In this document: positions 26,805-55,880 of the stretch, piece after piece
Layout: every line of letters begins with the position of its first letter
How positions within the stretch are numbered: position 1 is the stretch's first letter
Source: Methylobacterium sp. Leaf91
GTDB lineage: Bacteria > Pseudomonadota > Alphaproteobacteria > Rhizobiales > Beijerinckiaceae
DNA: 64,000 nucleotides
NCBI RefSeq assembly: GCF_001422815.1
Contig: NZ_LMMP01000045.1
Span: 64,504-128,503 of the forward strand
Direction: 5' to 3'
Translations under genes and position numbers: made by a program
The notes under the pieces: generated by a model
Told to the model about the DNA's origin: nothing
Seen by the model: only the letters and a program-made list of their open reading frames with translations
Database searches by the model: none

Positions 26805-27725
26805 ATGGACCCGGCGCATCTCCGCATCGGGATCGACCTCGGCGGCACCAAGATCGCCGGCATCGTTCTCGATGCCGGCGGAGCCGTTCGCGCCGATGGC
26901 CGGATCCCGACCCCGAGGGACGATTACGACGCGACCCTCGACGCGATCGTGTCGCTCGTCCTGCGGATGGAGCGCGAGGCAGGCGGCATCGGCAGTGTCG
27001 GCATTGGTATGCCTGGCGCGGTCTCGCCACGCAGCGGCCTCGTGAAGAACGCCAACTCGGTCTGGCTGAACGGCAGGCCCTTCGTCATCGATCTCGAGGC
27101 GCGGCTCGGTCGGCCGGTCCGAGCGGAGAACGATGCCAATTGCCTCGCGGTCTCCGAGGCGGTGGATGGCGCGGGTGCCGGGGCGCGGGTCGTCTGGGCG
27201 ATCATACTAGGGACCGGCGTCGGTTCCGGCATCGCCATCGACGGTGTGGCCCTGTCGGGCGCCAACCGCATCGCGGGCGAATGGGGGCACAATCCACTCC
27301 CCGCGCCTCGCGACGACGAACGGCCCGGTCCCGCCTGCTATTGCGGTCGGAAGGGCTGTATCGAGACGTGGCTCTCCGGGCCGGGGTTCGCCGCCGACCA
27401 TGGCAGGCGCATCGGAGCGGCCGCCCCGACGGGCGAATCCGTCATTGCCGCCGCGCGGGCGGGCGATGCAGCTGCATGCGAAAGTGTCGCTCGCTATCGG
27501 GACAGGCTCGCCCGCGCGATGGCCGGCGTGATTAACGTCCTCGACCCCGATGTGGTGGTTCTCGGTGGTGGGCTGTCGACCGTGCCGGAACTGACCGCCG
27601 ACCTGACCGGACTGATCCATCCGCATGTCTTCTCGGGAGAATGCGAGACGCCGATCCGGGTGAGCCGCCACGGCGACGCTTCCGGCGTGCGGGGTGCAGC
27701 CTGGTTATGGGGCCTCCACGCCTGA
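26805..27725 (+). CDS. ROK-family sugar kinase
   Basis: 306 aa with the usual ROK order: phosphate-1 loop IGIDLGGTKIAG, GIGMPG, catalytic Asp in AENDANCLA, phosphate-2 loop ILGTGVGSGI, the zinc site made of GH in EWGHNPLP and CYCGRKGCIE, and the adenosine loop VVVLGGGLS. It most resembles fructokinase/mannokinase/N-acetylglucosamine kinase (Mak/NagK) types, but the sugar cannot be fixed from sequence alone. It serves as an in-window reference for the permuted ROK-like protein at 54801-55880. Confidence 0.9.
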   Translation: MDPAHLRIGIDLGGTKIAGIVLDAGGAVRADGRIPTPRDDYDATLDAIVSLVLRMEREAGGIGSVGIGMPGAVSPRSGLVKNANSVWLNGRPFVIDLEARLGRPVRAENDANCLAVSEAVDGAGAGARVVWAIILGTGVGSGIAIDGVALSGANRIAGEWGHNPLPAPRDDERPGPACYCGRKGCIETWLSGPGFAADHGRRIGAAAPTGESVIAAARAGDAAACESVARYRDRLARAMAGVINVLDPDVVVLGGGLSTVPELTADLTGLIHPHVFSGECETPIRVSRHGDASGVRGAAWLWGLHA

Positions 27726-54800: not shown

Positions 54801-55880
54801 TCAATGCACCGTGTCGGGAAGCCGGCGGTTGGTGAAGCGGGCATTGCCGAGGCCGGTGCCGATGGTGAGGACGCCCCACCGTGCGACGTCGGTCATGTCC
54901 GACATGGCCGACAGGCCCTGCACCACGGCGTCGTTATGCATGAGCACCATGGTGTCATGATCGCCGATGGTGGGGATCGCCTCGACGAGCCGCTCGGTAA
55001 GGTTGAAGCGGCTGCTCTCCCAATTTCCGGGAAGGTTCTGACCGCCGCGTTCGATGGTCCCGTCGGCGGCGATGACGCCGGGGCACCCTACGCCGATGAA
55101 CGGCGCGAGCTTCAGGCGCGATCGCTCCGCCCGCGAGATCAGGTCGTTCAGCATCGCGATCAGCCGGTCCACCGCCTCGTCACGGCTTGGAGCCGGATCC
55201 TCGTCGCGGTGACGCCAGAGTTCCGAGCGCCAGATTTCCGCGCGTGACAGGTCGGAGGCCTTCTTCAGGTTCGTGGAGACGACTCCGGCCCTGATGTTGC
55301 TCCCGCCGATATCGACGGCCAGGAGGCTGTCGTAGCCCGAAAAGATCCAGGATGGCGCGAGGTGCACGGCTCCGATCAGCCCCGCCTCGTCGGGATGATG
55401 GCGGATCGGTTCGAGCTTCAGGTTGAGGCCGCCGGCCCGGAGGATCACGCTGGCTCGGTCGATGGCCAGACGTCCCGCGAGACTGTCGCTGAAACCTCCG
55501 CCCACGACGATGCTCTGCGTATCGCGCCACCCCTTCTGGCGGAGAAAGCGCCGCACCACGGTGGCGAGCTCCTGCGCGAATTCCTCGACCGCGCCGAAGA
55601 CTACACCGGCGGCGAGCGGAGGGCCGTCGATCAGCAGATCGTCGAGACGCCGCTTGCTGAAATCGCGGCTCGCTTTCGCCCCCAGCGGATCGGGGCCGAG
55701 CTTGCGCAGCTTTTCCCGCCAATCCTCGATGAGATCCCGGAACGCCGCCTTCGACACGCGATCGCCGACGAAACCCTCTCCGTTCTTCAGTTCGATATTG
55801 TAATCGTCGAGGACGACCGAGGGCAGATCGTTCGACGCGTGAGAGATGCTCGATCCGCGCGTTGCCGTATCGGTGCCCAT
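54801..55880 (-). CDS. ROK-like protein with apparently circularly permuted lobes
   Basis: 359 aa. The usual ROK order is turned round: the C-lobe comes first, with SIVVGGGF (123-130) and DEAGLIGAVHLAP (164-176), and the N-lobe follows, with the phosphate-1 loop LAVDIGGSNIRAGVV (187-201), GVGCPGVI (263-270), HNDAVVQG with the candidate catalytic Asp (315-322) and the phosphate-2 loop LTIGTGLGNA (338-347). The protein ends 12 residues later. The GH...CxCGxxGC zinc site is absent. Close homologues seem to occur in Rhizobiales. Whether it is a kinase or a regulator is unknown. The ATG at 55880 has AAGGAT upstream. Confidence 0.75.
   Translation of the reverse strand: MGTDTATRGSSISHASNDLPSVVLDDYNIELKNGEGFVGDRVSKAAFRDLIEDWREKLRKLGPDPLGAKASRDFSKRRLDDLLIDGPPLAAGVVFGAVEEFAQELATVVRRFLRQKGWRDTQSIVVGGGFSDSLAGRLAIDRASVILRAGGLNLKLEPIRHHPDEAGLIGAVHLAPSWIFSGYDSLLAVDIGGSNIRAGVVSTNLKKASDLSRAEIWRSELWRHRDEDPAPSRDEAVDRLIAMLNDLISRAERSRLKLAPFIGVGCPGVIAADGTIERGGQNLPGNWESSRFNLTERLVEAIPTIGDHDTMVLMHNDAVVQGLSAMSDMTDVARWGVLTIGTGLGNARFTNRRLPDTVH

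Follow-up and report, generated by a model that had tools for sequence, protein, structure and literature searches.

ROK proteins, together with the actin, Hsp70 and hexokinase folds, are classic two-lobed machines in which the order of the chain is usually taken as fixed. In ROK and hexokinase enzymes, short motifs of the DxGG, GxPG, ND, GTGxG and GGG kind hold ATP-Mg and supply the catalytic base, and some ROK proteins are repressors. Ordinary ROKs also carry two signatures in the second lobe, AGExGH and the zinc motif CxCGxxGCxE.

The window analysed here, a stretch of 64,000 nucleotides from Methylobacterium sp. Leaf91, encodes an ordinary ROK and a ROK-like protein with another motif order. 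The ROK at 26805–27725, in which both signatures are visible, has the usual order and the zinc motif CYCGRKGCIE, as a first-pass annotation had described, and matches Pfam ROK at 263 bits over residues 2–291 of 294. For the 359-aa protein encoded at 54801–55880, that annotation had read the GGG loop and a DEAGLIGA end first and the series DIGG, GCPG, HNDA and GTGLG second, and had proposed a circular permutation with swapped lobes. The motif order is as it had been read, and the features are located as follows.

54801–55880, minus strand: whole gene of the protein, interpreted as a circularly permuted ROK fold, 359 aa (open reading frame; start backed by an upstream stop in the relative L003)
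55359–55880, minus strand: residues 1–174, matching the C-terminal part of ordinary ROKs, that is, the rest of the second lobe (hhalign of the N-terminal half to ROK 206–304 and 217–317; the model of residues 12–182 matches ROKs first)
55494–55502, minus strand: GGG, residues 127–129, the adenosine-side glycine loop of ROKs (48 of 48 non-redundant members)
55371–55394, minus strand: PDEAGLIG, residues 163–170, the extreme C-terminal end of ordinary ROKs (profile alignments)
55329–55358, minus strand: residues 175–184, the new join of old C-terminus to old N-terminus (rotation scan, full alignment for starts 178–186)
54804–55328, minus strand: residues 185–359, matching the N-terminal part of ordinary ROKs plus the first hairpin of the second lobe (Pfam ROK 2–143; hhalign to ROK 8–141; VIA to 2yhw)
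55290–55313, minus strand: DIGGSNIR, residues 190–197, phosphate-1 loop (D[IV]GG in 48 of 48)
55077–55085, minus strand: CPG, residues 266–268, the ROK GxPG (48 of 48)
54930–54938, minus strand: HND, residues 315–317, with the presumed catalytic Asp317 (48 of 48)
54840–54860, minus strand: GTGLGNA, residues 341–347, phosphate-2 hairpin (48 of 48)

On the minus strand, the reading frame opens with an ATG at 55880 and closes with a stop codon at 54803–54801. This ATG is supported as the start because L003, which is 95% identical, has an in-frame stop about five codons 5′ of the equivalent ATG. Twelve residues lie between GTGLGNA and the C-terminus. PDEAGLIG is identical in 24 of the 48 members and differs at one position in 18 others.

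Chain order in profiles and models

Profile–profile alignment in native and rotated order, together with structure models of the full chain and of residues 12–182 alone, supports the proposed permutation, and we are highly confident that the 359-aa protein is a natural circular permutant of the ROK fold. Pfam ROK matches it at residues 187–353 only, over profile positions 2–143 of 294 (25.3 bits against a cut-off of 22.9). When a profile of 30 family members (A1) was aligned by hhalign to 31 ordinary ROKs (30 proteobacterial sequences and the window's own), the native order placed the C-terminal half on ROK 8–141 (score 51.5) and the N-terminal half on ROK 206–304, approximately (score 44.8), and the rotated order gave a single alignment of 274 columns spanning ROK 8–304 (score 72.0). 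A larger comparison, of 48 family members less than 80% identical with 57 ROKs, likewise yielded two alignments in reversed order for the native chain, scoring 103.5 (ROK 10–163) and 52.3 (ROK 217–317), versus one alignment of 292 columns for the rotated chain (score 138.8, probability 99.2). With both the 31- and the 57-ROK profiles, the rotated score exceeds that of either piece but is less than their sum.

Scanning the point of rotation gave a flat score of 72.0 for starts at residues 146–181, a peak of 73.1 at 186 and a drop to 57.6 at 194, beyond the DIGG strand. All 274 columns were aligned only for starts at residues 178–186, which agrees with a join previously placed near residue 180. 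Matched separately, the N- and C-terminal halves score 44.8 and 51.8 against the ROK profile, versus maxima of 25.1 and 28.9 in column shuffles (200 each; 29.8 for the whole protein), and reversed halves score 13.8 and 16.1. Because the rotated motif order is identical across the 30 aligned family members and both halves lie far above their shuffles, we do not regard this order as a product of chance.

Several other comparisons were insensitive to rotation. Small ROK profiles of 11 and 5 sequences showed no gain (104.4 versus 104.9 and 107.9 versus 108.1), the Pfam ROK score was nearly unchanged (25.0 versus 25.3 for the 359-aa protein, 44.8 versus 44.1 for the consensus), and in HMMER comparisons with 57 single ROKs the best domain of the rotated chain was better in 16 cases, equal in 26 and worse in 15. 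The single-sequence tests with Pfam and HMMER are thus neutral to slightly negative, with no consistent gain. Searches of the PDB reached the DxGG region only, both with the protein itself (phmmer, marginal at E 0.072) and with the family profile (best E 0.0018), and residues 12–71 align only loosely to the ROK zinc region. In the phylum sampled, neither an unpermuted near relative nor a duplicated intermediate was seen, only weak part-matches to ordinary ROKs.

AlphaFold2, run on profile A1, modelled the whole chain with a mean pLDDT of 90.1 and a pTM of 0.87, and therefore places the two halves as one body; residues 1–9 have a pLDDT below 50. VIA-align superposes residues 182–352 on the N-terminal parts of ROKs (best 2yhw, Z 12.7, rmsd 2.1 Å over 147 residues), and the top 19 rows for the full model, all aligned on this part, are what we take to be ROK-type chains. 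Modelled alone, residues 12–182 reach a pLDDT of 81.0 and match 3r8e best (Z 9.0, 141 residues), with 2gup aligned at 134–268 and 3vov at 143–294; the ten best rows are presumably all ROK-type. Foldseek returns ROKs as the top four matches of this construct, none at E ≤ 0.001 (best 4.2e-3). Several VIA rows align its first strand with about ROK residue 100, before GTGxG, a placement that may reflect the hairpin absent from the construct. The predicted secondary structure has a strand at 22–27 followed by helices, a strand at 123–127 before GGG, the first lobe from residue 185, and strands at 334–339 and 346–351 last. In these models, the ROK tertiary fold of both lobes appears in permuted order. 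Two outcomes that speak against a permutation, residues 1–180 failing to form the ROK C-lobe and two independent proteins being fused, were looked for and not found.

The swapped lobes originally described hold as a rotated order but not as a clean exchange of lobes, since the chain is cut beyond the GTGLGNA hairpin, within the second lobe. The whole first lobe and the GTGLGNA hairpin, which is the first of the second lobe, make up the C-terminal half, and what remains of the second lobe makes up the N-terminal half. This division puts both termini within the second lobe, close to the ordinary sugar/zinc loop, and in the model the cut falls between what we take as its second and third strands. 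In ordinary ROKs, this is the position of AGExGH and CxCGxxGCxE. The zinc site is missing, as had been noted for the window protein, with CxC in none of the 48 non-redundant members, and the stretch aligned to the ROK zinc motif reads GFxGDRxS in most of them. H14, present in 47 of 48, falls near the GH of ROKs in the 31-ROK alignment but not in the 57-ROK alignment; the residues AGE preceding GH map to the gap that separates the new termini, and the AGE of AGExGH was not found. Most simply, an ancestral ROK gene would have been rearranged by tandem duplication, after which the outer ends were lost. In this way the former C-terminal helix would have come to run through a short linker (about residues 175–184) into the old N-terminal DxGG strand, with new termini opened within the second lobe past the GTGLGNA hairpin and the zinc loop CxCGxxGCxE lost.

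Distribution and conservation of the family

A family in Rhizobiales had been suspected, and a full-length gene is present in 38 of 297 genomes of the order, the own genome counted; 41 of the 297 match at E ≤ 0.001. Non-intact matches in the order are decayed pieces (G230, G227) and a chance match to an apparent sigma-54-type regulator (G266). Of 398 in the phylum sample, 46 match, 22 of them strongly over nearly the whole profile, including five outside the class. The other 24 matches are weak and cover one part only, and the eight of these that were fetched are ordinary ROKs by profile. Stops flagged in three of the five outside-class matches are the genes' own ends, the frames being 352–364 aa long and ending just past GTGLGNA; in a quick tree rooted at the midpoint, the outside-class members form one group. 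Among the 385 of the class sample, 16 have a match at E ≤ 1e-40, and 13 of these come from outside the order.

Relatives are encoded in at least 565 of 593 candidate stretches of genome contigs, the best 80 of these at least 565 being mostly from Bradyrhizobium and also from Methylobacterium, Afipia, Rhodopseudomonas, Roseomonas and Stella. Plasmid records contribute 206 matches, mostly from Rhizobium and Sinorhizobium (204 of them covering 80% or more of the length), and phage records gave no match to the family. The suggestion that members carry a plain ROK label is borne out on plasmids, where 31 of 40 plasmid rows among the matches listed read 'ROK family protein' and the other 9 are unannotated there.

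Some copies depart from the full-length form. The own genome has a truncated second copy on contig C12 (L002, 1483–1887), about the C-terminal third and ending GTGLGNARF, which looks like a decaying paralogue. A large internal deletion in L042 (2879–3217) joins the N-terminal start to GTGLGNA, and one genome contains two decayed, truncated pieces of the family gene (L040, L041). A lysine/aspartate-rich low-complexity C-terminal tail extends beyond the conserved fold end in L007, L009, L011 and L015.

Against L003, dN/dS is 0.048 overall, 0.063 in the N-terminal half and 0.033 in the C-terminal half; the family gene is thus under purifying selection, in each of its halves. The motifs GGG, D[IV]GG, CPG, W287, HND and GTGLGNA are present in all 48 non-redundant members, the window protein included.

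Promoter motif and gene neighbourhood

The motif GGAAC-N16/17-CGTT lies upstream of 12 of the 48 non-redundant members, its strict form being absent in 36. These members, and so also the 12 carriers, are less than 80% identical in protein, and 500 mononucleotide shuffles, which ignore relatedness, gave a mean of 0.07 and a maximum of 2 versus the 12 observed. When spacings of 5–30 were scanned, the upstream motif occurred eight times with a spacing of 16, four times with 17 and once with 19. Equally long downstream stretches hold one motif at spacing 16 and one at 5; on the opposite strand there are four with spacing 16 and two with 17, which may belong to divergent neighbours. With GAAAC also permitted, the motif is found in 14 of 48 members. 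An earlier, looser count (spacing 15–19, 132 distinct proteins) had given 19 upstream, 4 of 131 downstream and 11 on the opposite strand, with a shuffle mean of 0.9; it used the whole 400 bases, so that some of the 19 are distant from the start, and the count over the 48 non-redundant members is preferred.

The Rhizobium etli EcfG1 consensus, as it stands in the available text of PMC3892343, is GGAAC-N16-CGTT, the same as the family motif; the EcfG/RpoE2 promoter motif is covered in the accessible portions of PMC3892343, PMC4167512 and PMC6180224. An EcfG-type motif is present upstream in Sinorhizobium meliloti 1021 and Rhizobium members, and the window gene has none in the 250 bases before residue 20, the GAAAC variant included. 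In many relatives, transcription would probably be driven by EcfG, the general-stress sigma factor of Alphaproteobacteria; on the strength of the motif we consider stress regulation likely for many relatives, the window gene being without it. Bradyrhizobium-type loci (L058, L065, L070, L079) have a conserved upstream block, AAACCAANGG(G)TTCC followed by CGTT or ATT, which in some contains a GAAAC-N16-CGTT variant of the EcfG motif and part of which resembles an imperfect palindrome.

Neighbourhoods were compared at 16 of the 80 named loci. The gene for trehalose-phosphatase, otsB, is divergent from the family gene in two Rhizobium plasmids, and in S. meliloti the family gene is divergent from the peptidase of an NAGGN osmoprotectant system. 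These two unrelated genes with osmoprotection functions lie at:

L156, 7058–9047: otsB and the divergent family gene, Rhizobium
L193, 6672–9074: NAGGN peptidase and the divergent family gene, S. meliloti

Elsewhere the neighbours vary. What we take by eye to be an rplU/rpmA/obg/proB block lies within 10 kb in 7 of the 16 loci, from Bradyrhizobium-type genomes and one Hyphomicrobiales MAG, and one Methylobacterium locus has part of it; no operon partner common to all was seen among the 16 loci compared. Taken together, the promoter motif and the osmoprotection neighbours point to a possible role in the general stress or osmotic response of many relatives.

Predicted function, alternatives and known systems

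The two halves would fold into one two-lobed ATPase domain, with ATP and Mg seated between DxGG, GTGLGNA and GGG, and Asp317 would serve as the base acting on a small-molecule acceptor, probably as in a kinase. An active phosphotransferase seems likeliest because the conserved motifs are ones known to bind ATP-Mg and supply the base, and we lean, with modest confidence, towards the 359-aa protein being an active small-molecule kinase. With the zinc loop lost and both termini near the acceptor side, its substrate should differ from those of ordinary ROKs. The likeliest function is that of a predicted ATP-dependent small-molecule kinase, stress-induced in many relatives.

Without any permutation, the protein could be an actin-like ATPase in native order, with residues 1–180 as a degenerate first lobe and residues 181–359 as the second, given the pseudo-symmetry of the actin fold. 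VIA does align residues ~20–333 in native order to actin, Hsp70 and crenactin chains (Z about 9, 205–237 residues), but at an rmsd of about 5 Å versus 2.1 Å for the permuted match to 2yhw. The first-lobe motifs DxGG, CPG and ND, moreover, sit in the second half of the protein, and sequence profiles match its two halves to opposite ROK ends; we read the native-order matches as internal pseudo-symmetry of the fold and judge this account very improbable. A fusion of two independent half proteins, or an assembly or frame artefact, could draw on the partial matches in a few genomes (L002, L040–L042). These copies look decayed, however, with L002, L040 and L041 truncated and L042 internally deleted. 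The recurrence of the full-length arrangement across the order, the single frame in which both halves are under purifying selection, the confident joint model, and the fact that no intact stand-alone half was seen in the order, phylum or class samples make either origin extremely improbable.

The permuted protein might instead have stopped phosphorylating and serve as a nucleotide- or ligand-binding regulator or sensor. The loss of the zinc motif, the position of AGE in the gap left between the new ends of the chain, the stress-type promoter of many members and the lack of a conserved operon partner all fit such a role. Against it, HND and the nucleotide motifs show no variation across the 48 members, a constancy for which a pure scaffold would have no need, and Pfam gives no family in residues 1–180 at E ≤ 10, hence no recognised DNA-binding domain such as the N-terminal winged helix of the Mlc/NagC type. 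We consider a regulator or sensor a real but lesser prospect.

A search of open-access published articles found neither a permuted ROK nor a tie between EcfG and the family gene. In the parts consulted, PMC1079889, PMC1976428, PMC3327638, PMC7824862, PMC10326533, PMC6200981 and PMC11387232 have subjects other than a permuted ROK, and the S. meliloti ROK genes in the available text of PMC6200981 and PMC11387232 are placed on pSymA, the family gene being on pSymB. A gene listed in PMC5118466 was considered as the family gene and set aside, since it has paralogues and the portion of that article at hand does not support the identity.

Tentatively, this may be the first actin-fold (ASKHA) kinase to be recognised as a natural circular permutant: an active, zinc-free enzyme whose new termini replace the sugar/zinc loop by the acceptor site and so admit a new substrate, with a general-stress or osmotic role in many Alphaproteobacteria, concealed by its plain ROK label in hundreds of genomes. 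A widespread permutant that retains the nucleotide motifs shows that chain order in such folds can change, here inside the second lobe at the substrate loop, and it offers a natural protein in which what the zinc loop and the inter-lobe connections do can be tested. Annotation pipelines give the family the name of an ordinary ROK; in rhizobia and related bacteria it is a good candidate for a stress-response enzyme not yet characterised.

Among known systems, the ROK repressors of the Mlc/NagC type (1z05, 3bp8, 5f7p) share the fold by structure match, but differ from the 359-aa protein, in which the nucleotide motifs are fully conserved. The polyphosphate/ATP glucokinases (NCBIfam NF045942; 1woq) are likewise not known to carry the ROK zinc motif and provide the best NCBIfam match, 22.8 bits over residues 187–354 against a cut-off of 250. 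Unlike the 359-aa protein they are not permuted, the five-sequence profile of nearest ROKs shows no gain on rotation, and an origin of the family from them is unsupported by the score. The ROK kinases (PF00480; 2yhw, the ManNAc kinase domain of GNE, and the glucokinases 2qm1 and 3vgk) are homologous to both halves and share DxGG, GxPG, ND, GTGxG, GGG and the Gly-rich C-terminal motif. The 359-aa protein differs from them in its rotated order, in the absence of CxCGxxGCxE and of a recognisable AGE, and in its new linker and termini. Because it departs from them in chain order and zinc motif, we class it as a circularly permuted ROK derivative rather than a standard member of the family.
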